Source: Fulvia fulva (lineage: Eukaryota > Ascomycota > Dothideomycetes > Mycosphaerellales > Mycosphaerellaceae). From it: 64,000 bases of DNA. Under the pieces are notes generated by a model, which ran no database searches, was not told the DNA's origin, and saw only the letters and a program-made list of their open reading frames with translations. Location: positions 1,798,001 through 1,862,000 of the forward strand of contig NC_063022.1 of assembly GCF_020509005.1 (NCBI RefSeq). The letters are read 5' to 3'. A program made the translations under genes and the position numbers. Below are positions 5,286 through 64,000 of the stretch, one piece after another; the first letter of the stretch is position 1; every line of letters starts with the position of its first letter.

Positions 5286-5317
5286 ACTTTGAGCACCACC
5301 ACCAGGGCCCTTTGTAT

Positions 5318-47022: not shown

Positions 47023-48150
47023 ATGACATCGCGACAAGTGGCGCTCAACTTTGAGGCCTATCTTCGTCGTCACGGTCGACTCACACACGATGAAGAACTG
47101 GATCTCATGCAACAGGGTATACCGCTGCATGAACATTACGGATTGCAACCGGAGCAGTATTTGCTACCACCACAACACTTTATGCCCTGCAGATTTATCG
47201 AGAACTATGACCTCACAGTCCAGTATGGCGCACATAGCTTGAGTAGCGCCCAACATGCGCTCCTTACTCAACGAGCGGTTACGGGCATGCTGCCGCCTAA
47301 TGCTGTGCCCACTGGCGGCTACCGCGAGCTCCAGACTCGGCCTCGAGCCGACAGTGCTGTTGCAAGCGTTTCAAGAGACAGCAAGCCACGTGTCGAGGAG
47401 CGATCTGAACCCGCTTCGGAAAGTATCACGCGCAGTATAGAGCTAGACGAGGCTATCAAGAACGACGTACCACTGAAGCGGCGGAGAAAGAGTGTCGAGC
47501 TAGACGAAGACTTCGAAGACGAGATTCCACTCAAGCGACGCAGAAAAGATCCAGCCCAGTCAACCACACCCAAGCTCAAGGTCAAGTTCAAAGCGCCTCC
47601 TCCTCCTCCACGAGCACAAGCAACCCCAGCACAACTCATCACTTCAACACCTCGAAAACGCACATCCACTCGTCCCAAGAACGGAGACGACAGCGACGAA
47701 GACTACCAACCACCCACCCGTTCCACCGCAACCACTCCCCTTCCGAACATTTATACCAACGCTTCCCTACCCTACACCACATCTACCGCCCCAACAACCG
47801 CGGCAACCCCAACTCGAACACCATCGATCACCTCCTCGGGCCGGTCCATCTCACCTGCCACTCCCCGCAACGCCCCTGTGGGTACGGTCTTCAAGAATGG
47901 TACACGACCCATCCCAGCAGAAATCCAAAATATCATGGCTGCAGTGAGAGAGATCAAGATCGGCAAGGATGGTCTGCCGCAGCGAACAGGACTGAGAAAC
48001 ACGTTGGGATTCACGGGACGGGACGGAGTGCTGAAGGCGACGAGTGTGCTGTGGCCTTGGTATGGGGATACGAGAGTCTTTAGTGAGCAGGAGTGGAAGT
48101 TCTTCGCCAGCAATGAGGAAGGACGGCGGAAGAGGAATGGGGGTCGATAA
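47023..48150 (+). CDS. Basic nuclear-type protein sharing a C-terminal domain with the upstream gene
   Basis: This is a single-exon 375-aa frame with its ATG at 47023 after a clean leader. Residues 1-105 are ordered (LNFEAYLRRHGRLTHDEELD...EHYGLQPEQYLLPPQHFMP). Residues about 145-178 hold a duplicated acidic-basic unit (ELDEAIKNDVPLKRRRK and ELDEDFEDEIPLKRRRK), each a good nuclear localisation signal. A Pro-rich hinge (KAPPPPPRAQ) and a Ser/Thr-rich linker follow. The last ~85 residues (IPAEIQNIMA...KDGLPQRTGLRNTLGFTG...WYGDTRVFSEQEW) align with the end of the preceding gene. The two probably arose by tandem duplication and diverged in their N-terminal parts. Function unknown; nuclear location is inferred. 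Confidence 0.85.
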   Translation: MTSRQVALNFEAYLRRHGRLTHDEELDLMQQGIPLHEHYGLQPEQYLLPPQHFMPCRFIENYDLTVQYGAHSLSSAQHALLTQRAVTGMLPPNAVPTGGYRELQTRPRADSAVASVSRDSKPRVEERSEPASESITRSIELDEAIKNDVPLKRRRKSVELDEDFEDEIPLKRRRKDPAQSTTPKLKVKFKAPPPPPRAQATPAQLITSTPRKRTSTRPKNGDDSDEDYQPPTRSTATTPLPNIYTNASLPYTTSTAPTTAATPTRTPSITSSGRSISPATPRNAPVGTVFKNGTRPIPAEIQNIMAAVREIKIGKDGLPQRTGLRNTLGFTGRDGVLKATSVLWPWYGDTRVFSEQEWKFFASNEEGRRKRNGGR

Positions 48151-48424
48151 GATGTGAGAAAGGGCAGGGTGTTATACCAAGAGGTGAGGAAAGGTCGTTG
48201 GCAAGGAGAAGCTTCGCCGCATCAAAGGAGGGCTTTGCCGCAGAGGTGAGGTCAGTAGTGCAAGCCGGTGGTCCTTGGCCGTGCCTGCATAACAGCTCTC
48301 CACACTAGCGTTGGAATAAGCTTTGGATGGATTAGTGATTCCACGGCACGTCATGCTATACATATAAACTCCCCAAACATCAACGTCAACCCATAATCTC
48401 ATCCCAACCTTGACCACTTCCACA

Positions 48425-49229
48425 ATGCAACCCAAGCCTCTCGCCATCATCGCCGGAGTCGGCTCAGGCCTCGGCTCCTCCCTAGCCCGCCGCTTCAGTA
48501 AATCCTATATCGTCGTCCTCCTCGCCAGGAAAGCCGAGAGCTACCAACCTGTTCTCGATGAGATCAAAGGCTCCGGCGGCGAGGCGTTCGGCCACAATAC
48601 TGACATTTCCGATCCGAAGAGTGTCAAGGATGCTTTCAGCAAGATCGCAGAAGTGTACCCGACATCTCAACTCGCAGTGGCGATCTTCAATGCGAGTGGG
48701 CCGTTTGTCAGGAAGTCGTTGCTGGAGGTGAAGGTAGAGGAGATAGATGCGGGGTATGGGGTTAGTATGTAAGTGTCTGCCCCCCAAGATAATCCAGAAG
48801 AAAAGCACGATTCCCCTAACCATCCCCACCAGCCGCGGCGCCCTCCTCTTCGCCCAGAACGCAATCCCCCTCCTCCTGGCATACTCCTCATCTCACCCCT
48901 CCTCCCCTCCATCCCTCTTCTTCACAGGCTCCACCGCAGCCATCAAACCCAACCCCTTATCCTCCGTCATCACGGTCCCACGGCACGGATTGCGGGCCTT
49001 GGCCATGTCGACTGCCAAGGAGTTCGGGCCAAAGGGGGTGCATGTCGTGCATTCGATTGTTGATGGAGCGATTGATACGCCTTGGGGAGAGAAGTTCTTG
49101 AAGGATAAGGGGGAAGAGGAGAAAATTGATCCAGCGGCGATTGCGGAGATGTATTGGGATGCGCATTTGCAGGGGAAGAGGGGGTGGAGTAATGAGATTG
49201 ATTGTAGGGCTTGTGGGGAGAAGTGGTAG
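48425..49229 (+). CDS. SDR-family protein with atypical active site
   Basis: Two exons, 48425-48768 and 48833-49229 (64-bp intron, GTAAGT...CAG), give 246 aa. The ATG at 48425 is used because the longer frame opens with TTG. A Rossmann nucleotide-binding start (AIIAGVGSGLGSSLARRFS) and VLLARKAE follow, then NTDISDPKSV and AIFNASGPF in place of the NAG motif. The region that should carry YxxxK reads SSVITVPRHGLRALAMSTAKEF: neither the Tyr nor the Lys is in place, while the flanking LRALAxSxAKEFGPKGVHV and the IVDGAIDTP block are typical. It may be a non-catalytic SDR or use another residue. Substrate unknown. Confidence 0.85.
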
Positions 49230-49429
49230 AGTGAGAAGTGGTAGGGGTGGTATGGGGTGGTTTTGGATGGTGTGATGTAGCGATTTACAGACGCACGTTG
49301 GTGTGTCCCCTTGATCTTATGTACCGACAAACATGGAACACGCCCGATTGTACTTGTGAGCCTTTATGTTTGAACCCCTCGCACCGACTTTCACAGGAAC
49401 TGCGTCAAGCTCTCAGAGAAAATCTTTTC
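49230..49429. other. Spacer before the tRNA-like cluster
   Basis: No gene is seen. At 49390-49403 is TTCACAGGAACTGC, repeated at 50484-50497 upstream of the fourth unit, so the two units share 5' flank. Confidence 0.5.
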
Positions 49430-49573
49430 GGACGGCTAGCTCAATGGTTAGAGTGTCTGTCCCACAGGGTCGCTCGCTCCCTTGGAGACTTTCGTTGGTA
49501 CTCACGATGCGCGGCATGCGATGAGGAGAAAGTAGAGAAGGCAGAAGATTCCAGTTCAATTCTGGAGTCGTCC
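49430..49573 (+). ncRNA. tRNA-like pol III gene with anticodon-loop insert, unit 1
   Basis: The ends pair as an acceptor stem (GGACGGC with GTCGTCC). An A box (TAGCTCAATGG) forms a D arm GCTC...GAGT, and the T arm TCCAG-TTCAATT-CTGGA carries the B box. Between the anticodon-stem strands TCTGT (49456-49460) and GCAGA (49541-49545) lies an 80-nt insert starting CCCACAGGG instead of a 7-nt loop with U33. A T5 run at 49583-49587 would end pol III transcription. Insert motif CTTTCGTTGGTA resembles CTTCGTTnnTAG of the other units. Confidence 0.75.
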
Positions 49574-49731
49574 GTTTCATTCTTTTTGTCCTGCTGGTGT
49601 CCTTGATCGTGATCAATCATTTTTGCTTCCCAAGTCCAACCCCAACACGAAAGCCAGAGAGAAGCAATATGATACAACATCATGCTTCCACATAGCACAG
49701 GCAAAGGTACTTGCACATTTTGGGCGACTAG

Positions 49732-49868
49732 CTCAGTGGTCAGAGCATCTGCAGCAAACACGGCACTCCCCGAGGTACTGCGGTCAGATTCCTTCGTTCA
49801 TAGTCAGCCTGTCTTTGGTGAGAAGGGAGCGTACAGCAGAGGTCTTCAGTTCGATTCTGAAGTTGCTC
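49732..49868 (+). ncRNA. tRNA-like pol III gene with anticodon-loop insert, unit 2
   Basis: Acceptor strands GGGCGAC and GTTGCTC pair (with G-U). The A box is TAGCTCAGTGG, the T arm TTCAG-TTCGATT-CTGAA. Anticodon-stem strands TCTGC (49748-49752) and GCAGA (49836-49840) flank an 83-nt insert with CCTTCGTTCATAG and CTTTGGTGAGAAG. T5 terminator at 49872-49876, four bases after the 3' end. No T is at position 33, so no usual anticodon can be assigned. Confidence 0.78.
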
Positions 49869-49987
49869 AAGTTTTTGCCAGCTCAAATACCTTTTGCTTC
49901 TCTACCGCGTTACAGATGCTTAGCTATGTAAATGTTCAGCAAGGCAGCATATCTTATATATCCCATGGAGACTAAGCACCACTTTTC

Positions 49988-50125
49988 GGACGACTAGCTC
50001 AATGGTAAGAGCACCTGCTACTGACTACGCCGAGGGAGCTGGCACTCCCTTACACTTGTAATCGGGCTGGTCTCGATGAGGGTGATTTTCAGCAGGAGGT
50101 ACTCAGTTCGATTCTGAGGTCGTTC
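49988..50125 (+). ncRNA. tRNA-like pol III gene with anticodon-loop insert, unit 3
   Basis: Acceptor strands GGACGAC and GTCGTTC pair. The A box is TAGCTCAATGG, the T arm CTCAG-TTCGATT-CTGAG. Anticodon-stem strands CCTGC (50014-50018) and GCAGG (50092-50096) flank a 73-nt insert, the shortest of the set, with CTCGATGAGGGTGA. T5 terminator at 50128-50132. The 5' flank CACCACTTTTCGG is shared exactly with unit 4, and a TATA-like TTATATATCCC lies about 30 bp upstream. Confidence 0.78.
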
Positions 50126-50244
50126 GCTTTTTGCTGAGTGCTCGTACATCTTGCCAGATGGCTTCCGTGAGATGTCTGTAGGGGGTAGGGCATGAGCGGA
50201 CGAGGCTTACACTCCGGCGAGTTGCTCACACGATCGCAAGCTAA

Positions 50245-50392
50245 AGTCAGCTAGCCAATTTGGTAAGCGTTTTGGCAGTCTACTTGATGGTGTTGCGCCG
50301 GGCTGCTCATTGGCGCTCATGTGTTCCTCCGAGAACGACGCTGACGATATTGTGCAGCAGGAGCTGTCCACTTCGACGCCGAGGCCTTTCCG
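50245..50392 (+). ncRNA. Diverged or decaying tRNA-like unit in the cluster
   Basis: AGCTAGCCAATTTGGTAAGCG near 50,250 resembles the A-box/D-arm of the other units with changes. GCAGCAGGAGCTGTCCACTTCG near 50,353-50,373 resembles their AGCAGG...B-box end (quoted piece contains ACTTCGACGCC). A T5 run follows at 50393-50397. Stem pairing is poor, so this is probably a degraded copy. Confidence 0.4.
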
Positions 50393-50518
50393 TTTTTGCT
50401 ACCATCGTGTCTAACCAGGCCGATGAATAAGTAGGCGAGCAGGCCAGGTTGCAGGTATGTAGTCTTCACAAAGTCTTCTTTCCTTCACAGGAACTGCTGC
50501 AGCGCGACACCACTTTTC

Positions 50519-50665
50519 GGGCAACTAGCTCAGTGGTAGAGCACCTGCTATCAATGCGCCCGCTACCCGCCCTTCGTTCGTAGCCGTCTGTACGTATCAT
50601 CATCGTACTTCGGTGAGAAGGTGACGGTGCAGCAGGGGGTCTCCAGTTCGATTCTGGAGTTGCTC
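50519..50665 (+). ncRNA. tRNA-like pol III gene with anticodon-loop insert, unit 4
   Basis: Acceptor strands GGGCAAC and GTTGCTC pair. The A box is TAGCTCAGTGG, the T arm TCCAG-TTCGATT-CTGGA. Anticodon-stem strands CCTGC (50544-50548) and GCAGG (50632-50636) flank an 83-nt insert containing CCTTCGTTCGTAGCC, a GTACG...CGTAC hairpin and the small hairpin CTTC-GGTGA-GAAG. T5 terminator at 50678-50682. Flanks CACCACTTTTCGG and TTCACAGGAACTGC are shared with units 3 and 1. Confidence 0.8.
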
Positions 50666-50892
50666 AAAGTATCTTTCTTTTTGCGTCATGCTCCCTGTTT
50701 TGTGCACATCACAACGAGTGTCCGTGTTGCCCTATCTTTCGTCACAGCTTGATGCGTGTCATTCGGGGTACCTGCCTTACCAGGGATGGCGCCGGGAAGA
50801 CCCAGTATCGTGAACTTGAAGCTTCTTAGTCGATGCTTTGGCGTAACTCTAGGGATATAGTCTTTTGATATCGCCAACGTGACAATCTCTCG

Positions 50893-51036
50893 GGGCAATT
50901 AGCTCAGTGGTTAGAGCGCCTGCTGCATAGCCTGGCGCGTTTACGTGTTGGGGCTCGCGCTTCGTTATTAGCCGTGGGAGACTTCGGTGAGAAGTGGCTG
51001 CAAGCAGGTGAGTCCAGTTCGATTCTGGAATTGCCC
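50893..51036 (+). ncRNA. tRNA-like pol III gene with anticodon-loop insert, unit 5
   Basis: Acceptor strands GGGCAAT and ATTGCCC pair fully, a compensated change relative to unit 4. The A box is TAGCTCAGTGG, the T arm TCCAG-TTCGATT-CTGGA. Anticodon-stem strands CCTGC (50919-50923) and GCAGG (51004-51008) flank an 80-nt insert with GCTTCGTTATTAGCC and the hairpin ACTTC-GGTGA-GAAGT. No T5 run is close downstream; TTTT at 51106-51109 is the first, inside the 3' end of the RING gene on the other strand. Confidence 0.78.
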
Positions 51037-51100
51037 GAGATCTTGAATTCTCGCTTATTGGGTATCTTGTCGCACGCCAGACGTGATATCTTCACCAATT

Positions 51101-52048
51101 TCATCTTTTGCTTGTGCGCCTCTCGCCATCATCTGCGTACTGCACCCACCTATCCCAATCCTGCAGACTGGTATGCGGACTCCTCAACCACGCCTCCAAC
51201 TCATGCAGCAGCTGTCTCGTATTCTCAAGTCCAAGGAAGTCCTTCACCAGTTCCTCAACCTTCCCATCTGCACCTCTTAGCTCGTTGTTCCGTAGAATAG
51301 CCACAATGCACTCGATCATGAAGTCTCGATTTCCGCCTCTCGGCGCATGATCCAAGAATGTGAAGACCTGCAACTCTCGCCTCAAGAACATCCTCGCTCG
51401 TGATTGAAGTTCTGCTGATGCGGCGAAAGTCTGGGCTGTAAATTCGCGGTATTGGGAGATGCGGTTCGCGCCGACGTGGAGGGAGTAGAGACGGTTACGG
51501 TAGATATGCCGTCTTCGGGTGAGGGAGTCATCGGTCGAGGACGCTGAATTCAGTCTTGGTCGTGTAGATCTTGATCGCTGGGGAACAGGCAGACCGCGGT
51601 AGTAGCGTTGATGTCTGCTGTCGGACCTATCCGGTGTGGCCTTCACGGACTCTGCCTCTGGCACAGGATAAGTCTTGAAGTCACTGGGACTTCGCCAGTC
51701 ATATTGCACTTCAGTGACTTTCGCTTTGCACAGCGGGCATGTCGACTGCTCCTGCAGCCATGAGACTAGGCACAAGTAGTCGAAGGTCAAGTGGTTGCAA
51801 GGCACGGCCACGGCGCGTTCGCTGATGGTCTCGAGGCAGATGGTGCACGCATCTTGCGTATGTGCTCTGTTGGCAGCGCCCTTGATCTTGTAGCCGTCGT
51901 TTGGGGTGCTGTTCAGCCTATCGCTCTCCATGCAAGATGTTGATGCGTGTGAGAGATGTGGTCGAGAACATCGAACGCATGCGACAGGGTTCCGCGCCAC
52001 AATCTGGACTTGGCGACGGCGTTTCCGCACTGCCGGCGCCGATGACAT
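51101..52048 (-). CDS. RING-finger (C3HC4) protein, probable E3 ubiquitin ligase, Topors-like
   Basis: A single-exon frame of 315 aa starts at the ATG at 52048 (the longer frame begins with GTG). The RING is at about residues 66-110: CTICLETISERAVAVPCNHL, then FDYLCLVSWLQEQSTCPLC. The CNHxFDxxC spacing and CPLCK ending are as in Topors-type and related fungal RING proteins, which act as E3 ligases. A basic Arg/Ser-rich linker follows (RSRSTRPRLNSASS), then a helical C-terminal half (RARMFLRRELQVFTFLD, DFMIECIVAILRNNELRG, LEAWLRSP). No membrane segment or signal peptide is seen. It is transcribed away from the HIT gene and ends 65 bp after tRNA-like unit 5. Substrate unknown. Confidence 0.88.
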   Translation of the reverse strand: MSSAPAVRKRRRQVQIVARNPVACVRCSRPHLSHASTSCMESDRLNSTPNDGYKIKGAANRAHTQDACTICLETISERAVAVPCNHLTFDYLCLVSWLQEQSTCPLCKAKVTEVQYDWRSPSDFKTYPVPEAESVKATPDRSDSRHQRYYRGLPVPQRSRSTRPRLNSASSTDDSLTRRRHIYRNRLYSLHVGANRISQYREFTAQTFAASAELQSRARMFLRRELQVFTFLDHAPRGGNRDFMIECIVAILRNNELRGADGKVEELVKDFLGLENTRQLLHELEAWLRSPHTSLQDWDRWVQYADDGERRTSKR

Positions 52049-52168
52049 CGTCACCCTGGCCAGAGCTTCATGAGGGGCAGGAACAACGGCCTCGAGGCCT
52101 AAGGAGAGTCAATGCCTCGAGTTGTAGTGACACCAGAACAGAGACAACGACAAGCTCAAATCGCAAGT
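52049..52168. promoter_or_regulatory. 120-bp bidirectional promoter between RING and HIT genes
   Basis: Only 120 bp separate the two start codons (52048 minus, 52169 plus), so the genes must share a promoter region. No TATA box is evident. Confidence 0.65.
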
Positions 52169-53192
52169 ATGGCAGCCAACTGTATATTCTGCAAGATCAT
52201 TAAGGGTATGACCAATGCACATCATATGGGAGCAACGGCATTGACAGCACTACAGGTGACATCCCATCAATGAAGCTCTTCGAGAGTGAGAAGACACTGG
52301 CATTCCTCGATATCAATCCTTTAGCGTACGTATGCCCATATAGATGGGAACTTAACTCAAGCAGACGGAACCTAACATAAGAACACAGCTACGGCCACGC
52401 GGTACGATCTACACCAACATCCCAGCTCTAGCTCGACCATCAATGTCCCCCGATCCTCCACATCCACATCCGCCTCACCATAGCAGCAGGAGGTACTCAT
52501 GCGGCCTAGAACCTACTGACACCTCAATATAGCTCGTAATCCCCAAACACCACGGCGCCAAACTCCTCGACATCCCCGACGAACACCTCTTCGAGCTCCT
52601 CCCCGTCGCCAAAAAGATCGCCAACGCAACAGGAGTAGAGAACTACAACATTCTACAGAACAATGGGTAATACAACCCGCAGGAGGAGCCAATATCTCGA
52701 ATTTCCACACTGACTCGGTGGTACCTCAGACGCGCAGCCCACCAAGAAGTAGACCACGTCCACTTCCACTACATCCCCAAACCCAGCCCAGAAGAGGGCC
52801 TACAGATCGGATGGCCACAGCAGAAGCCTGATATGGAGATGCTTAAGAAGTTGTTGGAGGAGATCAAGGCGAAGGTAAGGAATACCATATCCAGAGGGAA
52901 GGGTTGATGGGGAATCGGATAATCCCAATGCCTCCTACACCACTGGGAGAAACGATGGCTGACATACAATCCGTGACATCAGATGTAGACTGTCATGCAA
53001 CGCGAGAAGTTCGGAGTCGAGAGCGGGCGGGCGGAAGGAGAAGAGGCGGTGATAGAAGATCAGTATCAATTGGGGCAAATGGAGCAGAGGAGGCAGAACG
53101 ATGGTGGGAAAATTGAGTGGATGGGGACATTACTCAGGGAAATGATTGAACGAGGTGTTGTGCCGAAACGTCGTCTCTCAGACAATTTGTAG
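52169..53192 (+). CDS. HIT-family (histidine triad) nucleotide hydrolase, HINT type, six exons
   Basis: Exons are 52169-52205, 52256-52325, 52389-52401 (13 bp), 52533-52666, 52730-52874 and 52989-53192, giving 200 aa with all phases closing. The N-terminus MAANCIFCKIIKG, then DIPSMKLFESEKTLAFLDI, YGHALVIPKHHGAKLLDI and NYNILQNNG are HINT hallmarks. The catalytic triad is HVHFHYIPK (H-x-H-x-H-x-x). Such enzymes cleave AMP from amino-acyl or phosphoramidate adducts. The sixth exon adds about 67 charged residues (IEDQYQLGQMEQRRQNDGGK) not in a core HINT; if the last intron (52875-52988) is kept, the protein would stop at about 52906 instead. The 13-bp third exon is forced by the YGHA motif and is easily missed by gene finders. 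Confidence 0.85.
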
Positions 53193-53466
53193 ATAGATGC
53201 CGTAATTGATGCGTATGATACACGAAGATTGCTATGGATATGAACAACTGCGCCACCCTTGTTCTATCTTCATCACGTCGTAATTATGCTTCATATCAAT
53301 GATCCCTTCCATTCCCCAGACACCATTTGGCCTTCTCATTTGAGTCCATCCCAACAGTTCTAGTAATCACAATTATACAAAGTGGGTATATCTCCAATCC
53401 ATTCCAACTCAGCGGCATCCCAATCATCCCCTCCCATCTCCATCACCATCCTAAACACCCATCAAA

Positions 53467-56400
53467 CTAAAACGCACCTCGAATCTTCGCATAAAGCTCC
53501 GTATCCAAGAAATTATAATGAGGGTCGAAAATGCAGAACGGTGCCCTCAGAAGTGTATCCGCCGTAGGCCTCTCGCCGGGATCGATCGTGAAGCAATCGT
53601 ACATGAAACTCAGCGCCGCCGGCCCAACGACAGTGGACACATCATCAGGAATGGGAGGTGCTTGATTCAAAGATCCAAGTTTGTATATAGCGCCGATGGC
53701 TTCTTCTTTACTCCACGGACGACGACCCGCGAACATTTCCAGCACCACACAGCCGAGGGACCAGATGTCGACTTTGGCCGAGTAGCCAGCAGAGGACGTA
53801 ACGTCGAGGGATCCGTCTGTAGAGGCGGCTGTCAAGGTCTGTGATTGAGCGCGAATCACTTCAGGAGCCATCCAGAAGACGGAACCTTGCATGCTGTTCG
53901 TGATATCATTGTTGTAAGGGTTCGCGCTTCGTTTTGAGATTCCAAAGTCTGAGATCTTGCAAGTTCCGTCGAGGTCCAGGAGGATGTTGTCGGCTTTCAG
54001 GTCACGATGGAGGATGCCTTCGCTGTGGAGGTATGCTAGACCACAGAGGGTCTGTCGAGTGAGGGAGCTGACAACGGGTTCTTCGAAGCGGCCGTGTTTG
54101 CGAAGACAGGAGCCGACGCTGCCACCGGAGATGTACTCGAGGAAGATGGAGATGCTGTATTCTTTGCGTTCGCAACCGAGGTATTGGACGATGTTGACGT
54201 GGTCAAGATGTTGCATGGTGTCGATTTCGAGGTCGAGAGCTTTGACCATTTCGCGAATTTTGGCTGGGTCGGTGTTGGCTGCTTTGGGATTGACTTCGAC
54301 CTGTTTGACTGCCAAAAGTTCACCTGTTGTTGTGTTCATACCGAGGTAGACACGCCCGAAGGTACCTTTGCCGATGAGTTGACCTCGCATCCATTTGAAT
54401 GTTGGTTGGCGCTCGGGCTTAATGTGCTGCACGTTGCCGATCGGGATGGTGTCTTGTGGAATGGTATCAAGGTTGGTGATGAGACGACTGCCACGTTGCG
54501 GCTTGACCTGCTCGATCTTGGCGCCGAACATCTTTGTGCTCTTGCGACGCACAATACCAGCATTGTCATTCTTCAAGGTGCTTATCCTATTATTCGGTAG
54601 AGGAGTGTGCACCGGTAGTCCCGGTGCTGGCATGCCGACGGTGCTAGGAACACGGCTCGAGAAGGTCGAAGAAGATAGGGACGGATGGTGTGATGGTCCG
54701 CCCAGGTGCGAGTAGTTGTTCTTGACCACATCACGAATGCTCTTCGTTCTACCCAAGCCACCAGACTTGCGCATACTACGCTCGGCCACAGTCCCGGCCT
54801 TGAGCGTGGACCCTTCACTATCAAGGATGCTCATGTTCTCGACACTCGATGCTGGCGTAGTCGTGCGGCTGATGTTGACGCTCAACTCCGAAGACGAGGG
54901 TTGCGATTTCAAGGTCGACTTATCGGTCGACTTATCACTTGTAAGTGGGCTGTTCTCAGCACCTTCTTCACCCTCGCCCATCGGCTGATCTAGATCAACG
55001 TTCGGGAAGAAATTGTCCAGCCTCTCAGCGATGTCTTCAACAGGTGGACGGAACTCTCCCGCGAAGCTGTCTCGACGATTGACCCCGAACGGCGCAGGCC
55101 AATCGGGAGAGTCAGTCATTCCGGGAGATGAAGCTGACTGGGGGTCAAAGGGAGCACTAGCACCCATGAGTTCCATGTCGGTGAGACCACCGCCAGTCAG
55201 CTTATCGAGGGGCGGATTCTTTGGAGATTCAAATTTGACGTTGACGTTGGGCCGTGTCGTCGAGATCTTGAGTTCTGGTCTGTTTGGCGAACGTCGTGGA
55301 GATTCTGTACCGGTCACACCGAGGATCTTCTTCGCCTTTCTTTGAGAAGGCGTCTCTGGCACCTTCTTCTCCTCCTTTTGTTTTGCCAATGGTATCGCAA
55401 ACAGTCCATCGTCAGAGTCATCATCTTCCGAATCGAATGCGCCAATGTTCGGCGATGGCGCAAAGTCAGGTTCATGCTCAGGTACATCGAATTGTGGTCC
55501 ACGCTTGCTCATCATCCTGTTCAATGAGGACGATGGAGGCGGGTGTGATGAGCTAGGACTGAGGTCTGGACTGTGAGACCGGCCCTGAGCTTGAAGCTTG
55601 GCCAACATCGGGTTGGAAGGAAGGCGTATGGATAGTTGAGGTCTTTGACTGGCCTTAAGAGTGTCTTCGTCGTCCTCTTCATCGTCTTCATTGTAAGCTG
55701 GGACATTGAACATCTGGCCTCCCTTCGATCGTGTGGTGAATGGACTTCGTGGTGTGCCATTGCCAGGGCTAGATCGGCCTCCGGACGCAGAGCGGTTGAA
55801 GTTGATGCCAGCCAAAGCTCGTTGATGGCTTTCATCTCCTGCCAGAAGATCAGGTGCAGTAGTCGACTTCTGTAGGGCCGAAGGAACCAATGGCGGACCA
55901 CCTGCGGGAGCACTGTTGGGAGCGGCAATGGCGCCGGCGGCTTTCCCAGCTCCAGCCAATGCAGCGCCAATGCCTCTGCTGGATGGTCGCTTACCCTCTT
56001 CTTCTGGTAAAGAACCGCTGGAGATTCTCTTCCACGGCTCCTCCTTGCGATTGTTCCAGCTCGTGCGAGTAGTTGGGCCTTGCTTCTTCGTGAGACTGTT
56101 GGCTTTGACCAATGTCGAGGTCGGCTCGGGCACAGGAGGAGGTCTCCGCATGGGCTGGAAACCATCGGCTTTCCTCTCGTCATTATACGATTCGGAAGAG
56201 ACTGGGCGGCTGCCGAACTGCCTGTCCAGATCGTAGGGAGCATGACGGGGACTGTCGAAGTTGTGTACACGCTTGCCATTGGCATCCAGTAGCGTCATCG
56301 ATTCGCGCTTCGCCTTGTAGAATTGCTGCTTGCGCTCCGTATCACGCCTGTGTTGCTCGGCTCGCGCTGCCAAGAGGGCTTGCTGCTGCTCATAGGGCAG

Positions 56401-59346
56401 CTTCTGGAAGTCCTGTTGCAGCATACTTTCTTGATAAATCGCTTGCACTTCTGGCTGTCTGGAATCACCATCCTTTGGCAGATTGAGCAGTTGCGCGGCC
56501 TTTTCTGGTACCAATGTGCTGCCATCAGATCTGATAGTCGACGGAGATCCAGTATCCTGGTCTTGCAGTCGCCTCCTTGTAGCTTCGTCCATTGCGTTCA
56601 CGCCAAATGTTGCCTTGGAGAATGGTGATGTCGGAAGAACCGACAGCCCAAGCCCAGCACTCTCTGGTGGCTGCGGCATATCCCCAGGAACGCGGACGAA
56701 GAGTTTGAGGTCGCCAGTGGGGCTAGCGAGTTTTGATCGGACATTCATCAGCATGTCGTCTGTGAGACCTTCCTCGTGTTCGATCTTGCCAGGCGCGGTG
56801 ATGTGTATGGACAGATCTGGAGTTTCAGGCACGCCTAAGTTGAAGCATATTACCGTCTTCAACTGATCCGCAGTCTCGACTTCTGTGATATCGATAAGTC
56901 GGTAGTTCCAGCCATCTGGTGTAACAAAGATGAACTTCTTGTCACCCTCTCGTGCCTGTGGGCGACCTCGCGGTAGTGCAGAAACATAGTCGCTGGAGCC
57001 AACACTCAAGTGCTGTTCTTTCCTCAACGCTGGACGCTCGTTCAATGAGATGTCAGATGTAGCAGGTCCACCTTTGCCGCCATAAGGATGACGCATGAGA
57101 TTTGGACTGACAGGCCCATGCTCTTCGTCCGGCGACGGGTGGTCGTCCTTTTTGCGATTCCGTCTAAATTTCTCCCAAAGTCCTTTGTGCTCTTTGGCAC
57201 TTGCGGGAGTATCTCGGCTGCTGCCTCGCAAGCTGCTGTCCGTGGGCGGAGGCCTCGAGCCATCATGGCCATTTCTCCTGTCGCTGACAGAATCTTCTCC
57301 AGCATGCTTAGTCACATCATTCTCGCTGTTCGAAGAAAGACCGGCATAGAATCTGCCAGCATTTGCGTTTGAGTGTTGCTGAATATTGGTGTCTGAGCTC
57401 GGGCCACGATAGTGACTTGAGCCGCTTGGGAAACGAGTGTGGCCAGCATTCGAGCTTGGTCGAGCGCTTATGAGTCCAGGACTTTGCTGTGGACTTGCTC
57501 TGAAGTTTTGGTTCGTTGCGCTGAGATCGCCGGTACTGCCGCTAGGAGAGGCATGCTTCCGCATCTCGTTCAGATTGCGAAGGGCTGAACGTGAGTACTC
57601 GGCCCTTTCAGTGTCGTTCAACGAGTTCGTAAAAGAGTCCAGTGTGACGGATCTGCTGCCTGGTACCTTCTTAGTATGCGTAGGTATAGGAAGGCCACTG
57701 CCCGGGGAGTTGTCTCCTCCATCCGCAGTGTTGGGGGTGGAGCCAAAGGTATCATTTCTTGTAAGATTGGGTGAGCTCTCCATGCCACCTGCATCGGTGC
57801 CTGCACTCTTTGTGCACTGGTTGGAGTCACGTCGAGTGGTGTTGTGCAGCGGGAGACTGGTAGTACTGCTTGTTGCTGCTGTGGAAGGTGTCGCCGCACC
57901 ACCATTCTTGACCACATCTCGAACCAGCTTCCGCAGCCTTCGTCCCTCTTCGCGCTCCCTGTTTTGGTCCCATACTACGCCGTTCGCAGTGCACATTCTG
58001 GCTACCTGCGGAAGAAGGGTCTGCGGCACAAAGCCAATGTTGCGATTCCTATCTCGCCCACCTATATCAAGGAATTGTGTCCCGTGCACATTGAGTTGCT
58101 GGAAAGCTGACTGCCACTCCTTCGAAAATGCATGGGCTGCCAACCAGATTTGAACTCGTTCTGCAGGCCAGTTGTGATCATGCGGCGAAGCTGGAGTGTC
58201 GCCCGACGACGAGTGATCGCGATTCGAGGCAGAGTCGTTGTTCTGAGCAAGATGCTGGCTGAAGGCGCCCCTGCTCGCATCTGCTGGCGAAGTGTGTTGT
58301 TCCGTCTCTTTCGCAGGCAGAATCAATGTCTTTTGCCTGCCGGCTGTCGGTGTCGGCGGTGGCATAGTATTCAACTGTGGAGGCACAGATTGCGATTGGA
58401 GTGGAGGCTGTTGCTGGAACTGAATATTGCTGTGGTTGTGACTCTGGTTGTGATTGTACCATGCTCCCGTATCTTGCTGTCTAAACGTAGGCTCGTTCCC
58501 GTAATGCTGCCAGACATCGTTCGTGGATGTAAAGTCCTGCGACTGTCCTCTGTAGTAGCTCTGGTGCGTGGAATGTGCCGCTGGTCGTGAGGGCATAGCA
58601 CTGGGCGTGTGCAGTGGAGGTATGCCCACGCCCGGCCCAAAGCTCCCTCCATCTGGTATGTACGTTGCCGACGTCAACGGAGCATTATCGTTCAAGGGCG
58701 GCAGATTCGCGTACTCGAAGTAGAGACTAGGATCGTATGCTCGTGGCTCTCGCGGTTGGGTTTGCGGTGGTGGTGGGGGATAGGCAGCCTGGTGGGCACG
58801 GTTCCAGTAGGTGTTCGGCTGGCCTGGAGGTGGAGGGACGAAGGGCGCATGCTGCTGGGTTGCGCTCATGGGCATTCTAGGTGGCGGCGGTGGAAACGCC
58901 ATGCCGGCTTGAGGCTGCGGCTGCTGTGGTGGTGGCGGCGGAGGGATGTAGCCCTGTCCTGCGCGCTGCGACTCGGAGACATGGCGAGCGCCAGGCGCTG
59001 CCCATTGAGACTGTTGCATTGTAGTTCCAGGCGTAGACGGCGTGGCCCGTCCTTGGTTCATGCTCGGGTCAGCATAAGTATGCGCGCGCGGTCGCGGCGA
59101 GGTGGAGGGCGGCGGTATGGATGCAATGGAGGGATCGGGCGAGTCGGAAGCCCCTTGAGGGCGCAATAGAGATGTCGCGTGGGCAGTCAAGGTATTGGTA
59201 GCGGGGATGTCGTGCAGGACGAGACGGCCGTTGCCGTTGCCAGGTACCACTAACTGATGTGCACCGCGAAGATGCGCCGGCGTCGATCGATGAGATTCGT
59301 CGGGCGTGGATCTGTTGCTGCTAGATCTGTGGCGGCCCGATATCAT
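53467..59346 (-). CDS. BCK1: MAP kinase kinase kinase of the cell-wall integrity pathway, BCK1 type
   Basis: This is a single-exon frame of 1,959 aa from the ATG at 59346 (an in-frame TTG lies 48 bp upstream). The N-terminal ~400 residues are Pro/Gln-rich; a SAM-like segment follows (WPAERVQIWLAAHAFSKEW...GTQFLDI), then a Ras-association-like segment (KKFIFVTPDGWNYRLIDITE, ICFNLGVPE) at roughly residues 830-910. The kinase domain is the last ~310 residues: GKGTFGRVYLG, AVKQVEV, HRDLKADN, DFGISK, MAPEVI and DIWSLG. An insert of about 25 residues between APE and DIWS is usual in fungal Bck1. It should phosphorylate a MKK1/2-type MAPKK downstream of protein kinase C. The family assignment is by architecture and kinase sequence. 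Confidence 0.92.
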   Translation of the reverse strand: MISGRHRSSSNRSTPDESHRSTPAHLRGAHQLVVPGNGNGRLVLHDIPATNTLTAHATSLLRPQGASDSPDPSIASIPPPSTSPRPRAHTYADPSMNQGRATPSTPGTTMQQSQWAAPGARHVSESQRAGQGYIPPPPPPQQPQPQAGMAFPPPPPRMPMSATQQHAPFVPPPPGQPNTYWNRAHQAAYPPPPPQTQPREPRAYDPSLYFEYANLPPLNDNAPLTSATYIPDGGSFGPGVGIPPLHTPSAMPSRPAAHSTHQSYYRGQSQDFTSTNDVWQHYGNEPTFRQQDTGAWYNHNQSHNHSNIQFQQQPPLQSQSVPPQLNTMPPPTPTAGRQKTLILPAKETEQHTSPADASRGAFSQHLAQNNDSASNRDHSSSGDTPASPHDHNWPAERVQIWLAAHAFSKEWQSAFQQLNVHGTQFLDIGGRDRNRNIGFVPQTLLPQVARMCTANGVVWDQNREREEGRRLRKLVRDVVKNGGAATPSTAATSSTTSLPLHNTTRRDSNQCTKSAGTDAGGMESSPNLTRNDTFGSTPNTADGGDNSPGSGLPIPTHTKKVPGSRSVTLDSFTNSLNDTERAEYSRSALRNLNEMRKHASPSGSTGDLSATNQNFRASPQQSPGLISARPSSNAGHTRFPSGSSHYRGPSSDTNIQQHSNANAGRFYAGLSSNSENDVTKHAGEDSVSDRRNGHDGSRPPPTDSSLRGSSRDTPASAKEHKGLWEKFRRNRKKDDHPSPDEEHGPVSPNLMRHPYGGKGGPATSDISLNERPALRKEQHLSVGSSDYVSALPRGRPQAREGDKKFIFVTPDGWNYRLIDITEVETADQLKTVICFNLGVPETPDLSIHITAPGKIEHEEGLTDDMLMNVRSKLASPTGDLKLFVRVPGDMPQPPESAGLGLSVLPTSPFSKATFGVNAMDEATRRRLQDQDTGSPSTIRSDGSTLVPEKAAQLLNLPKDGDSRQPEVQAIYQESMLQQDFQKLPYEQQQALLAARAEQHRRDTERKQQFYKAKRESMTLLDANGKRVHNFDSPRHAPYDLDRQFGSRPVSSESYNDERKADGFQPMRRPPPVPEPTSTLVKANSLTKKQGPTTRTSWNNRKEEPWKRISSGSLPEEEGKRPSSRGIGAALAGAGKAAGAIAAPNSAPAGGPPLVPSALQKSTTAPDLLAGDESHQRALAGINFNRSASGGRSSPGNGTPRSPFTTRSKGGQMFNVPAYNEDDEEDDEDTLKASQRPQLSIRLPSNPMLAKLQAQGRSHSPDLSPSSSHPPPSSSLNRMMSKRGPQFDVPEHEPDFAPSPNIGAFDSEDDDSDDGLFAIPLAKQKEEKKVPETPSQRKAKKILGVTGTESPRRSPNRPELKISTTRPNVNVKFESPKNPPLDKLTGGGLTDMELMGASAPFDPQSASSPGMTDSPDWPAPFGVNRRDSFAGEFRPPVEDIAERLDNFFPNVDLDQPMGEGEEGAENSPLTSDKSTDKSTLKSQPSSSELSVNISRTTTPASSVENMSILDSEGSTLKAGTVAERSMRKSGGLGRTKSIRDVVKNNYSHLGGPSHHPSLSSSTFSSRVPSTVGMPAPGLPVHTPLPNNRISTLKNDNAGIVRRKSTKMFGAKIEQVKPQRGSRLITNLDTIPQDTIPIGNVQHIKPERQPTFKWMRGQLIGKGTFGRVYLGMNTTTGELLAVKQVEVNPKAANTDPAKIREMVKALDLEIDTMQHLDHVNIVQYLGCERKEYSISIFLEYISGGSVGSCLRKHGRFEEPVVSSLTRQTLCGLAYLHSEGILHRDLKADNILLDLDGTCKISDFGISKRSANPYNNDITNSMQGSVFWMAPEVIRAQSQTLTAASTDGSLDVTSSAGYSAKVDIWSLGCVVLEMFAGRRPWSKEEAIGAIYKLGSLNQAPPIPDDVSTVVGPAALSFMYDCFTIDPGERPTADTLLRAPFCIFDPHYNFLDTELYAKIRGAF

Positions 59347-59514
59347 AGCATGCGGCCTGGTGGCAACACACTCCCTCCGATCGAGATGCAGCAAGCAAGA
59401 TGCAGCGTGCAGATGTGGGAGCGGTGCTCTGCGCGGCTCACGTCATCTCCTGGGACGGTGAGGTACAGAATCGACGAGTGAAGTATGTTGGATATGCTGC
59501 TCCTGGCGATGTTG

Positions 59515-59545
<31 letters not shown>

Positions 59546-60119
59546 AATACTCCATCCAAGCTCTTCACCAAGGCCCAGCTCAAGTTCTAGGCTTCTAGCT
59601 CTTTTCCCTGTCGCTGCGACGACAAGTGCGATCCTGGTCGCGGCTCCCAGACGGAGCTCGTATCGTGGACGGTGGACCTCTCATCAAATTGAATCAACAA
59701 CTCGTCAACGACAACGACAACGACCAAGACGAACCGCGAGATTATGCGGCAGATGCTGACGAGGGCGCAATGCTACACCAACGCTCATGACCTGCCGCCG
59801 CACAGTGGACGATGGCGAAAATGATGGCTGCAGCCTCCAATGCGGTCAACGGCTTCACCGGCCGGTTCCACGGTTTCTGCAGAACGCTCCTGTGCGACGG
59901 CAACGCCTGCATCGTACAAGTACATGTCGTGTCCTTGCGACACCGCATCTGCTGGGACCAACAGATTCTCACATTGCAGGCGGCCTCTTTCCCTCATCTC
60001 ACGCCGGCCGTCGAGAACGACACGCGTCTCACGCAGTCATTGGACGACGACTTTACCACACGACCATGATCGGCAGGCGTCCACGTGTCGTACCGGCTGT
60101 GCCGAGCTGATGGGCGGCA
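59347..60119. promoter_or_regulatory. Upstream region of the BCK1-type gene, with microsatellites
   Basis: This contains (CTGTGC)5 at 59515-59544 and CAACGA repeats near 59,702-59,722. Several short overlapping open stretches (59787-60110 plus) have no recognisable protein; one of 85 codons at 59812 could encode a small protein, but I cannot support it. It probably holds the promoter and 5' leader. Confidence 0.45.
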
Positions 60120-60234
60120 GGAATCCTTCTGCTTGACAGACTCTCACCTAATCACTAGGGACCAGGCTAACAACGAGAATGTCTTCTTCACGGAAGCACA
60201 AGTAGCAGACGCTCTGCCATTGAGCTAGTCACCA
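60120..60234 (-). ncRNA. Dispersed tRNA-like copy with conserved insert but no B box
   Basis: On the minus strand from 60234: TGGTGAC, then A box TAGCTCAATGG and D arm GCTC...GAGC, then TCTGC (60209-60205) pairing with GCAGA (60132-60128) around a 72-nt insert. The insert has TCTCGTTGTTAGCC and AGGTGAGAGTC, matching the CTTCGTTnnTAGCC and GGTGAGAAG motifs of the 49-51 kb cluster. After GCAGA the T arm, B box and 3' acceptor strand are missing (AGGATTCCTGCCGCCC), so this copy is probably truncated and not transcribed normally. Confidence 0.65.
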
Positions 60235-60513
60235 CATAGTGTTCATCGGGCGCTCTCTTGTTTCTGCGTGTGAGTGAGGATGTCTCAGGCTGTATCTGTA
60301 GACTCAAGGCATACACAGTGCACGTCAGTATGAGGGAACCTGTCAAAGTTCCTCGAACCCACGAAAAGGAAGGAGCAGGAGATATCAAGCGTATGGATCC
60401 ACCAGAACGCAGCTTCACTACGCCCCGGATGGTATCATCTAGATAAAACTTGCTTCTGATACTCTAACATCGCTAACTCCAGCAGAACAGCAAACAACCC
60501 GCACACACCAGGC

Positions 60514-62115
60514 TTATCCAAACGGGAAGCCCTGAGGAAAGCCCCCTTGGAAGGGGAATTGTCCGCCCTGAAACTTAAAATGGGCGCCTCCTCCTCCTCC
60601 GCCTTGACGCATGAAGATAGGCTGACCACCAGGTCCGTGACCAAACGGACTGCCCTGGAAAGGTTGCTGTCCAGATTGTGGATCATTGGGGTCGTCGCCG
60701 CGGTCGAAGCGGGCTTTGAGTTCAGGGTCGGATAGAACTTCGTATGCCTCGTTGATAGCGGACATCTTCTTCTGTGCTTCTTCTGGCGTGACGCCGTTCT
60801 TGGCTGCCTTGTCGGGGTGGTATTGGATGGTGAGTTTCCTCCACGCCCTCTTGATGTGTCTTTCGTCTGCGTCTCTGTCCACGCCGAGGACCTTGTAGTA
60901 ATCCTTCGTCTTGCTCCTCTTAAGAAGTGTATGCGCCTTGTTCAGTAGATCCTGGATTTTCTGGATGTTGCCGTGTTCCTCCTTTGCGGCGTTGAGGGTC
61001 CCAATCGCGGGCTCGAAGTCGTCTGCGTCGAGCTGTCGTTGGGCTTTTGATAGGAGGGCGGGTAGTGAGTTGGGGTTGTAGGTTAGAGCTTCGTCGCAGA
61101 AGGGGGCGGCCTTCTTGAGGTTGTTCATCTCGGTGTAGCATTCGCAGGCGGATTCAACGAGGTTGCCGTAAAGTCCATCTGGAGCTTTTACGTGGATATA
61201 GCCTGCTTCGCGGTGTACCTTGATGTCGTCCTTGACGTCTTGGAGGAGGCCGGGTTCTTCGCCTTGGGGTATGAGGAGCTTTACGGCGGAGTTGTACTGC
61301 CGCTTCTCGTGCAATGTCTTGAATTTCTTCAATGTCCTGTCAATCGCCTTTTGTGACTTTCGTAGTCGTGAACAGGCCTTGTTGTCGGGGTCGTTGTGTA
61401 AACACTTCGATACTGTCTTAATGCCTTTGTCTGTCTCGCCGAGAGAATAGAATGTCATGGCCGCTATTTGTAGGTACGGCTCTTTCAGGTTAGAGTTGAT
61501 CTGCAACGCATGGTTGTAATCTGCCAGAGCCTCGACGATCTCGCCCTTTTCAAGTCTGCATTTTGCCCTCCGTTGCCGCAGCTCCAATGCTGTGCCTGCC
61601 ACCATTATCGCAGTGCCGGCATTCGTGACACATGCCTCCCAGTCACCTGCCTTCTCTGCGTCTGCGGACAACTTCTCCGCTCCCTCTGCCTCCTCCAAGT
61701 CTAGCCAATCCTGGGTGTCCTTCTTCCCCGCTGCGAGATAGTCTGCCTTGGCCGCTTTCCAGTCGGCATTGCGACTCCTGATCTTCGCTCGCTGTGTTAA
61801 GGCGCCCTCGAATCCAGGTTTCAGTGTGAGGACCTGATCAAAGTCGCGGCTGGCCTGCTGGTTCTTGCCGAGCGACAGGTAGGTTGCACCCCGCTTAAAG
61901 AGTGTGAGGTAATTGCTGGGGTCCTTTGAGATGGCGGCGTCGAAGTATGTGAGCGCCTCTTGTGCTTTCCCCTGCGCGAGGTTGGCGTTGGCTGTCGCGA
62001 TCAATTGCGAAACTGGAGTGTCCTTGTCGATATCGGCCGGTGGTAGCGCGAAAGCGCCAGGTACTGAGGAGAGGCACAAGGCCCCAATGGCCAGCGAGGA
62101 GAGTCCAAGCTTCAT
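60514..62115 (-). CDS. ER DnaJ/TPR co-chaperone, P58IPK/DNAJC3 type
   Basis: A single-exon frame of 533 aa starts at ATG 62115. A signal peptide (MKLGLSSLAIGALCLSSVPG then AFA) directs it to the ER. TPR repeats fill residues ~30-400 (ALTYFDAAISKDPSNYLTLF, ASRDFDQVLTLKPGF, ALADYNHALQINSN, AAPFCDEALTYNPNSLPALL). A J domain is at about 405-470: DYYKVLGVDRDADERHIKRA, QYHPDK with the HPD motif, INEAYEVLSDPELKARFD. The tail is Gly/Phe/Gln-rich. Members bind unfolded clients in the ER lumen and stimulate BiP/Kar2. Length and domain order fit the animal DNAJC3 and fungal orthologues well. No KDEL-like end is present (ends FPQGFPFG). Confidence 0.94.
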   Translation of the reverse strand: MKLGLSSLAIGALCLSSVPGAFALPPADIDKDTPVSQLIATANANLAQGKAQEALTYFDAAISKDPSNYLTLFKRGATYLSLGKNQQASRDFDQVLTLKPGFEGALTQRAKIRSRNADWKAAKADYLAAGKKDTQDWLDLEEAEGAEKLSADAEKAGDWEACVTNAGTAIMVAGTALELRQRRAKCRLEKGEIVEALADYNHALQINSNLKEPYLQIAAMTFYSLGETDKGIKTVSKCLHNDPDNKACSRLRKSQKAIDRTLKKFKTLHEKRQYNSAVKLLIPQGEEPGLLQDVKDDIKVHREAGYIHVKAPDGLYGNLVESACECYTEMNNLKKAAPFCDEALTYNPNSLPALLSKAQRQLDADDFEPAIGTLNAAKEEHGNIQKIQDLLNKAHTLLKRSKTKDYYKVLGVDRDADERHIKRAWRKLTIQYHPDKAAKNGVTPEEAQKKMSAINEAYEVLSDPELKARFDRGDDPNDPQSGQQPFQGSPFGHGPGGQPIFMRQGGGGGGAHFKFQGGQFPFQGGFPQGFPFG

Positions 62116-62609
62116 CGTAGTAGCATTGGGTGTTTCCTAGGTGATGGTTGTTGCAGGATGTGAGTCGTTCGATTGAGACGTGTCTCGGAAAGATGTAAGT
62201 TGTCCAGTTCACATGCAACAACGATTGTGCTCCACGCCGATCCTTGCCGCCACGTGGAGAACGGCAAAAATGACGCGGATCCGCCGACCGTACAGCAGGC
62301 TGCAGGCTGCAGCGAAACATGTCACAGCATTGTTGGACATTCACCTACCACATCGTCGTGGCCCATAGTCGGATACACTCGAGCAACGTATTCGGTGTAC
62401 TATCATCTCTCGCCACTCCCGCTCTGATAACATTGCCAAATCGCCACAGGATCGTCGCACCGCCGTACCGGATACGATCGAGGTACACCGTGACACGACA
62501 GATGCAAGACACATGAGCTTGTGACCATACGAGACACACAACCCGCTGAGCTTCAGATCATAGCTCTATCCTCGACTTGCCTCCTATCACTCTACCTCAC
62601 CCACCGACA
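62116..62609. promoter_or_regulatory. Divergent promoter region of the DnaJ and GH5 genes
   Basis: This 494-bp region lies between start codons pointing away from each other. It holds CCACGTGG at 62251-62258, a perfect palindrome with an E-box core, which may be a bHLH/bZIP site. A match to an unfolded-protein element is not clear. Confidence 0.5.
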
Positions 62610-64000
62610 TGCCTTCACATCGCCTGCGAATCGACGGCCAGCTCTTCCGCGACAATCAGAACCGCCAAGTCACGCTTCATGGCATCAACATAGCAGGCGA
62701 TACCAAAGTCCCAGCGACACCTAATGTACCATCTCACGTGAAAGAGCACTTCTTCGACGGCGACGATGTCTCCTTCGTAAACCGACCCTTTCCTCTTTCC
62801 GATGCACATTCGCACTTCTCGCGACTACGACGATGGGGCTACAACACAATACGATATATCTTCACCTGGGAGGCGCTGGAACACGCCGGACCAGGAAAGT
62901 ACGATGACGACTTTGTAAACTTCACGATATCAGTATTACGGATAGCGAAAGAGTATGGTTTCTACATCTACATGGACCCGCATCAGGATGTCTGGAGCAG
63001 ATTCACCGGGGGTAGCGGAGCACCAATGTGGACATTGTATGCGTGTGGATTTGACCCTCACAGGTTCCTGGCAGGACAATCGGCCTTGGTACAGAACATG
63101 TTCCCGAATCCTGCTGAGTTTCCCAAGATGGTCTGGGCGACAAACTACCAACGACTGGTTGCGCAGACCATGTTCACGTTGTTCTTTGCTGGCAAGGACT
63201 TTGCCCCGAAATGCGTAATTGATGGGAAGAATATCCAGGATTATCTGCAAGAACACTTCGTCGGCGCATGTCAGCATTTGGCGCAAAAGATCCATGACGC
63301 AGGAGATCTTGAGGGCGAGGTTGTGATCGGGTACGAGAGCATGAACGAGCCCAACAAGGGACACTTTGGACACCCAGACTTGAACGCGATACCGAAAGAA
63401 CAGAACTTGCGAAAATGGACCGCCCCGACTGCATTCCAGGCGATGCTGACAGGGTTGGGCAGAGCAGTGGAGATTGATACTTGGGACTTTGGCAGCCTTG
63501 GGCCGTACAAGAGCGGGACAGAACTGATCGATCCGAAGGGTACCACAACATGGCTTGATCCCGCGACATGGGACGATACAAAGTATGGCTGGAAGCGAAG
63601 TCCGGACTGGAAACTGGGGGAGTGTATATGGGCACAGCACGGGATCTGGGACCCTTCAAAAGACGAGCTACTACTTCCACAATACTTTGCGAAGCGGCCT
63701 AAGACAGGTGAACAGCTGGATCAGGATGTGTTCACAAACACCAACTTCATGGACTTTTATCGCAGATACAGGGACGCTATCCGGAACGTCTGGCCTGAAA
63801 GTTTCATGCTACTGCAGCCCACACCGTTCGAGATCCCACCAGAAATCAAAGGCACAGCAGATGACGACAAGAACATGATCTTTGCTTCCCACTTCTACGA
63901 TGGTATCACGCTTATTACCAAGAAGTGGAACAAAATCTGGAACATCGATGTGCTTGGCGTACTCCGTGGCCGCTACTCGAATCCCGCGTTTGCTATCAAG
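62610..64000 (+). CDS. GH5-family glucosidase, steryl-glucosidase/EGCrP2 type, 5' part
   Basis: This open frame starts at ATG 62610 and runs for 463 codons without a stop to the window edge, so it is partial. Conserved blocks: RIDGQLFRDNQNRQVTLHGI (substrate-site start of GH5), SRLRRWGYNTIRYIFTWEAL, YGFYIYMDPHQDVWSRFTGG and IGYESMNEPNKG, whose NEP Glu is the GH5 acid/base. The nucleophile Glu would lie past the edge. There is no signal peptide, as in the intracellular fungal enzymes that cleave glucose from ergosteryl glucoside or glucosylceramide (yeast Egh1/YIR007W, Cryptococcus EGCrP2/Sgl1). Choice between sterol and ceramide substrates is inferred. The gene diverges from the DnaJ gene. 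Confidence 0.9.

Follow-up and report, generated by a model that had tools for sequence, protein, structure and literature searches.

What kind of RNA is encoded by tRNA-like genes in which the anticodon loop is replaced by a long insert? This question was raised by a 64,000-nucleotide (nt) stretch of the genome of the tomato leaf-mould fungus Fulvia fulva, also called Cladosporium fulvum (contig 11:1798001-1862000, here called the window), in which five such units, u1 to u5, lie on the plus strand within 49430-51037. The original prediction had read them either as RNAs built on a tRNA scaffold or as tRNAs with an abnormal intron. That alternative was borne out in part: the sequence alone does not separate the two possibilities, and the prediction had missed that every insert holds a hexamer of the form YUNNUA, always in the same place and flanked by two covarying helices. 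The reading that we favour, tentatively, is that the units may be tRNA genes with two introns, at 31/32 and 37/38, flanking a 6-nt anticodon mini-exon.

Five cloverleaf units with an interrupted anticodon arm

As had been predicted, all five units (u1, 49430-49574; u2, 49722-49869; u3, 49988-50126; u4, 50519-50666; u5, 50893-51037) have acceptor, D and T arms, A and B boxes and a paired anticodon stem. The acceptor, D, anticodon and T stems measured 7, 4, 5 and 5 base pairs (bp), respectively, and the variable loop measured 4-5 nt. T-loops of the form TTCRAYT and the GG of the D-loop were present in these five and in a sixth, full unit found on contig 7 (1205957-1206102). When the six units were aligned, standard pairs occupied all of the 126 cloverleaf cells (126/126), and 6 of the 21 cloverleaf pairs had changed on both sides. 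Among 500 shuffles, none reached the observed number of paired cells and three reached that of two-sided pairs. By eye, the tertiary contact G15-C48 or A15-U48 was possible in four of the six units.

The insert between the two strands of the anticodon stem was 80, 83, 73, 83 and 80 nt long in u1 to u5, which agrees with the 73-83 nt given earlier. The earlier statement that T is missing at position 33 was likewise correct, the base read straight from the stem being C, G, A, A and G in u1 to u5. Mean identity among the units was 0.81 for the bodies, 0.55 for the inserts (shuffled, 0.49) and 0.50 for the flanks (shuffled, 0.49). The first 32 bases of u2 and the contig-7 copy were identical, and the identity fell just past what would be exon 1.

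Runs of five T started 9, 3, 2 and 12 bases past the last base of u1, u2, u3 and u4, respectively, four units as had been announced; a run that close was found at 0.6% of the plus-strand positions in 48001-63940. Within 45 bases of u5, T occurred at most three times in a row. The sequence TTTTTGC, a T run followed by GC, was seen downstream of u2, u3 and u4, and runs of this type were also seen downstream of other tRNA genes of this genome (loci L127, L129, L135, L145 and L169). TATA-like stretches were located at about -25 to -42 in u3, u5 and the contig-7 copy (by eye in the last), and u1, u2 and u4 had TATG-type stretches only, at -54 to -65.

A hexamer between two inner helices

Two helices, H1 (5 pairs) and H2 (4 pairs), were recognized in the inserts of the six units and of a diverged seventh copy, u6, on the minus strand of the window (60110-60236). 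Across the seven copies, 61 of the 63 cells were paired and six of the nine pairs had changed on both sides; the elements counted, here and in the cloverleaf, were hand-picked and concatenated, and the counts therefore lean towards structure. Of 500 shuffles, none was as high in paired cells or in covariation score and four were as high in two-sided pairs, and versions of H1 and H2 slid along the sequence paired at 43-57%. Both unpaired cells sit in u3, where H1 is more irregular than in any other copy. These counts omit two outer pairs of H1, which were formed in one and four of six units.

Exactly one YTNNTA was present in each of the six inserts (u1-u5 and the contig-7 unit), always between H1 and H2. 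In shuffled inserts, the average was 2.2 of six, and six of six was reached by 2 of 2000 shuffles. The hexamers are TTGGTA in u1 (49495-49500), TTCATA in u2 (49797-49802), CTTGTA in u3 (50055-50060), TTCGTA in u4 (50577-50582), TTATTA in u5 (50965-50970) and CTCATA in the contig-7 unit, and u6 carries TTGTTA at 60173-60168 with the same two inner helices. Read as positions 32-37, they give Y32, U33, a free N34 and N35, U36 and A37, and the would-be anticodons are GGU (Thr), CAU (Met), UGU (Thr), CGU (Thr), AUU (Asn box), CAU (Met) and GUU, respectively. Five of the seven copies have A at position 38, which would belong to a third exon. The joined loop would thus be YUNNUA(A/G), as in the anticodon loops of tRNAs for ANN codons.

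The tRNA finders were run with and without introns. ARAGORN without introns reported none of the units, and Rfam at its gathering threshold gave no match in the window. In a permissive scan, the tRNA family RF00005 matched one of the five units (u5, 47.5 bits), and the contig-7 unit (L162) had no Rfam report at E up to 0.1. With one intron allowed, ARAGORN called all five units, but the anticodon differed from one to the next (Leu GAG, Leu CAA, Lys UUU, Thr CGU and Cys GCA); the Thr CGU for u4 matched the hexamer anticodon in name, but the split differed. A single intron was rejected, since no split restores U33 from either side. The claim that no split yields a decodable loop thus holds for one intron and fails for two, with the hexamer as the loop. 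When both introns were removed on paper, sequences of 72-73 nt were obtained, and ARAGORN recognized all six as tRNAs (Thr GGU, Met CAU, Thr UGU, Thr CGU and Asn AUU for u1-u5 and Met CAU for the contig-7 unit), which is a consistency check only because the tool is expected to accept many loops with U33. Spliceosomal introns were also rejected for the cluster units, as the proposed introns do not start with GT and end with AG.

A single intron would be enough if the anticodon arm were nested. H1 together with G31 would then be the true stem, YUNNUA and G38 the loop, and H2 a 37/38 intron, and the outer stem and the remaining insert would be an added junction. In the contig-7 unit, one more G-C pair can indeed be added to H1, which then becomes a perfect stem of 5 bp around a loop of 7 nt, and H2 starts directly after A37 in all seven aligned copies. 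However, position 31 would face position 39 as G-A or A-A in six of the seven copies, base 38 would be G in every copy, and the outer stem already occupies precisely the position of the anticodon stem in a tRNA. We consider the nested arrangement very improbable.

In the two-intron reading, the family would be transcribed by RNA polymerase III into tRNA-type RNAs with two interruptions in the anticodon arm. Positions 1-31 would make up exon 1, followed by intron 1 of 28-44 nt, the mini-exon with bases 32-37, intron 2 of 30-48 nt at the canonical 37/38 position, and positions 38-73 as exon 3. H1 would form in the precursor between the 3' portion of intron 1 and the middle of intron 2, the hairpin H2 at the start of intron 2 would stack beyond H1, and the mini-exon would lie in a 7x2 internal loop. 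The transcribed precursor would be cut to release each of the two introns and ligated to a 72-73-nt tRNA, which would be charged and would decode ANN codons. Two interruptions are also found in other tRNA genes of this genome, one for tRNA-Thr(AGU) and one for tRNA-Thr(CGU), with two putative introns each. Like canonical intron-bearing nuclear tRNA genes of eukaryotes, the cluster units combine a cloverleaf and A and B boxes with an intervening sequence in the anticodon loop. In canonical 37/38-intron genes the anticodon stem leads into U33 and the anticodon; in the cluster units it does not, and removing any one intron fails to restore these bases.

Spliced tRNA or structured scaffold?

Several observations weigh against two introns. 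Scored for the strict 3-4-3 form of the bulge-helix-bulge motif, the intron 1 junctions of all six units reached 3-5 of 10, below the random-cut mean of 5.0-6.0, and the intron 2 junctions reached 5-8, with the random 95% point at 7-8; splicing through a strict bulge-helix-bulge is thus not supported by the junction scores. Further pair types were not above the shuffles in the cloverleaf (423 of 500 as high) or in H1 and H2 (50 of 500 as high). The base before the hexamer is G in six of the seven copies and the opposing bases are GA in six of seven. Both would be intronic, and they are explained better by a structural loop than by introns. H1, an open 7-nt loop and H2 appeared together in the lowest-energy folds of three of the five cluster units (u1, u4 and u5). 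The fold of u3 had a shifted H1, and that of u2 combined H1 with a different inner helix and paired part of the hexamer. With the cloverleaf enforced, u4 kept H1 in part only. The would-be anticodons differ among close relatives. To our knowledge, GGU and AUU anticodons are not normally used by eukaryotes, and the share of these unusual anticodons, two of seven, is about what free drift of N34 and N35 would give. Moreover, u4 is not needed for its codon, because an ordinary tRNA-Thr(CGU) gene exists elsewhere.

The main rival of the two-intron reading is an unspliced RNA on a tRNA scaffold. The enlarged anticodon arm, composed of H1, the GYUNNUA/GA internal loop and H2, would be its working part, for example a binding site for a protein or an RNA, and the tRNA body would contribute promoters and stability and allow RNase P and RNase Z to process the ends. 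Such an RNA would account for the conservation of the entire loop module beyond the hexamer (the G, YUNNUA and the opposing GA), for the covariation of both H1 and H2, for the absence of archaeal-type splice motifs from the junctions in the strict form scored, and for N34 and N35, which vary as freely as an unconstrained pair. Nevertheless, it leaves the match to an anticodon loop (Y32, U33, A37 and mostly A38) unexplained. The folding energy of whole units was also only weakly and unevenly different from that of shuffles (z from +0.70 to -2.48 in u1-u5, with two of the five folded stretches starting one or two bases inside the unit). On balance we regard the scaffold as unlikely. If it were true, a natural tRNA body would carry a structured RNA, a use of the tRNA body known mainly as a laboratory tool.

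The two-intron reading may be compared with described systems. In the excerpts of PMC4090602, multi-intron tRNA genes are reported for archaea, the red alga Cyanidioschyzon merolae, and cryptophyte and chlorarachniophyte nucleomorphs; in archaea and C. merolae the junctions carry bulge-helix-bulge or related motifs, and the splicing mode in nucleomorphs is given as unknown. According to the excerpts of PMC8450103, a eukaryotic tRNA gene has one intron at most. As in the genes of PMC4090602, the tRNA body of the cluster units would be interrupted repeatedly, with the canonical 37/38 intron as one possible interruption. Unlike in archaea and C. merolae, the cluster junctions show no strict bulge-helix-bulge; the mini-exon is only 6 nt, unlike the exons of those multi-intron genes, and no fungal case is named in these excerpts. 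In a further described system, a transcript of a filamentous fungus combines tRNAs with an additional RNA stem; that stem is located outside the tRNAs, and the insert of the cluster units is located within the anticodon arm. Fungal milRNA precursors of the milR-4 type yield small RNAs through RNase Z and Dicer. The earlier remark that no described class of this form was known to its author agrees with the excerpts of both papers on multi-intron and eukaryotic tRNA genes. Among the literature matches listed, the titles and abstract openings of open-licence papers described no such gene in fungi.

If the two-intron reading is true, the introns on both sides of a hexanucleotide exon are spliced out of tRNAs in this fungus without the archaeal or red-algal motif, and the known reach of eukaryotic tRNA splicing would be extended. 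With more reserve, we suggest that the units could represent a fungal nuclear tRNA family in which a 32-37 mini-exon lies between structured introns, removed without a strict bulge-helix-bulge, and in which paralogues swap anticodons within the ANN box. The array would in that case be a source from which new tRNA identities arise.

Copies in the genome and other tRNA-like genes

The genome searched comprised 67,169,167 bases in 14 contigs. A pattern of A box and B box with a gap of 90-120 matched five times, every time in the cluster (reversed control, none); within the window, these five matches compared with none across 100 shuffles. A looser pattern with a gap of 80-110 gave nine matches (reversed control, one), namely the five cluster units, the contig-7 unit, one tRNA-Thr gene and two other loci, in which a covariance model showed no full unit. 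When the whole cluster was used as a BLAST query, the cluster and the contig-7 unit alone were returned, and the contig-7 match spanned the unit and about nine bases beyond it. A search for the inner motif matched u5 and u6 only. The sensitivity of these pattern and BLAST searches is limited and more diverged copies may exist, because the contig-7 unit escaped BLAST when u4 was the only query, and u6 first came to light through the covariance model. That model, a check proposed with the original prediction, was built from u1-u5 and run on the window, where it detected u6 with 30.5 bits (E 3.4e-08). The same model gave 27-60 bits on five loci with other tRNA-like genes, and the case for u6 is therefore based on its insert, that is, the hexamer and the two helices. 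The T arm of u6 is lost, and u6 is probably a pseudogene. The description of the family as a local cluster holds for the five units; the contig-7 unit and the decayed u6 lie outside it.

The loss of the T arm in u6 would fit a further explanation, that the array is a decaying tRNA-derived repeat, which would have arisen in tandem from an intron-bearing tRNA gene, been duplicated and drifted without a product. A and B boxes and several diverged copies are features common to the cluster units and to the tRNA-derived short interspersed nuclear elements (SINEs) and repeats of fungi. The drift of the anticodons and a possible, weak relic in the gap between u3 and u4 would also fit. This relic, at 50246-50394 on the plus strand, aligned weakly to u1-u5 and was rejected as a further unit of the array, with alignment scores of 33-43 compared with 43-49 for the best of 200 shuffles each. 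On the other hand, the bodies have kept their high identity next to flanks at the shuffled level, all cloverleaf pairs are intact, the terminator is kept in four of five units, and the inner helices carry compensatory changes. Unlike for a SINE, few copies were found and they show no dispersal, and the cloverleaf is intact through compensatory changes. Tandem decay is accordingly judged improbable. A tRNA-derived SINE as such is not supported either, as the pattern and BLAST searches, with their limited sensitivity, found the cluster and one contig-7 copy. According to the excerpts of PMC8450103, tRNA-derived repeats occur in some fungal genomes.

Upstream of the cluster, an open reading frame (ORF) ending at 49229 resembles short-chain dehydrogenases (PF13561, E 7.7e-05, under its curated cut-off), and downstream a RING-finger gene on the opposite strand ends at 51101. 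Four small ATG ORFs of 66-97 amino acids overlap the intergenic gap. Elsewhere in the window, a retrotransposon piece at 5312-6313 contains an ORF with Retrotrans_gag and zinc-knuckle domains.

Four tRNA-Thr genes were found to have putative GT-AG introns of 48-62 nt, located within the D arm or next to it, with CTRAY 9-11 bases before the 3' end. They are L146 (contig 3:4910334-4910519; AGU, two introns of 62 and 52 nt), L169 (contig 13:1947019-1947142; AGU, one intron of 48 nt), and L156 (contig 7:3574973-3575099) and L180 (contig 7:1038639-1038776). Of the two contig 7 genes, the one for AGU has a 55-nt intron, and the one for CGU has a 55-nt intron and an 11-nt intron at 37/38. The boundaries were chosen to fit both the splice signals and the cloverleaf. 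After removal of the introns, the acceptor pairs were seven of seven in all four genes, the AGU genes of contig 3 and contig 7 gave the same 72-nt tRNA from differing introns, and by eye one D-stem mismatch remained in the tRNA-Thr(CGU) gene. These four genes were among the 13 matches (reversed control, 11) to an intronless ANN-type loop pattern in the genome. The Rfam tRNA search scored 63 of 1234 candidates, and other tRNA-Thr genes may exist. No earlier report of tRNA genes with spliceosome-type introns was found among the literature matches listed, and we know of none. Cladosporium (Fulvia) fulvum is known for introner-like elements (PMC4457414). The tRNA-Thr introns raise the same question as the cluster, namely which machinery matures tRNAs in this lineage.

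Whether u2 and the contig-7 copy are the sole supply of elongator tRNA-Met was addressed by pattern searches, all of which a diverged gene would escape. The common eukaryotic anticodon-arm sequence of this tRNA was absent from the genome at up to three mismatches. Its intron-split form matched once (control, two). A 14-mer with one mismatch matched nine times (control, seven); inspection by eye and Rfam with E values up to 0.1 showed no tRNA among these. The elongator tRNA-Met gene may be diverged or interrupted.

A pattern with a gap of 44-74 matched five times (control, three), and one of the matches was the tRNA-like gene L127 (contig 4:5939402-5939505; Rfam tRNA, 59.5 bits). In L127, TTAGTA lies between CCCCC and GGGGG within the anticodon stem, and there is no U33 at the normal place; it is a possible distant example of the design of the cluster units. 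In viral contigs, at least 120 stretches matched the A/B-box pattern and were set aside as presumed neighbouring phage tRNAs, whose spacing fits, and one viral match to the inner motif was taken as chance. Six near-identical 115-nt tRNA-like stretches on six contigs (L138-L143, 41.9 bits each) are probably part of a repeat element. A weak tRNA-like match on contig 2 (L147, 275612-275715; 33.3 bits) shows a CTCATA loop and a B box that is damaged, and it may have an intron at 37/38.
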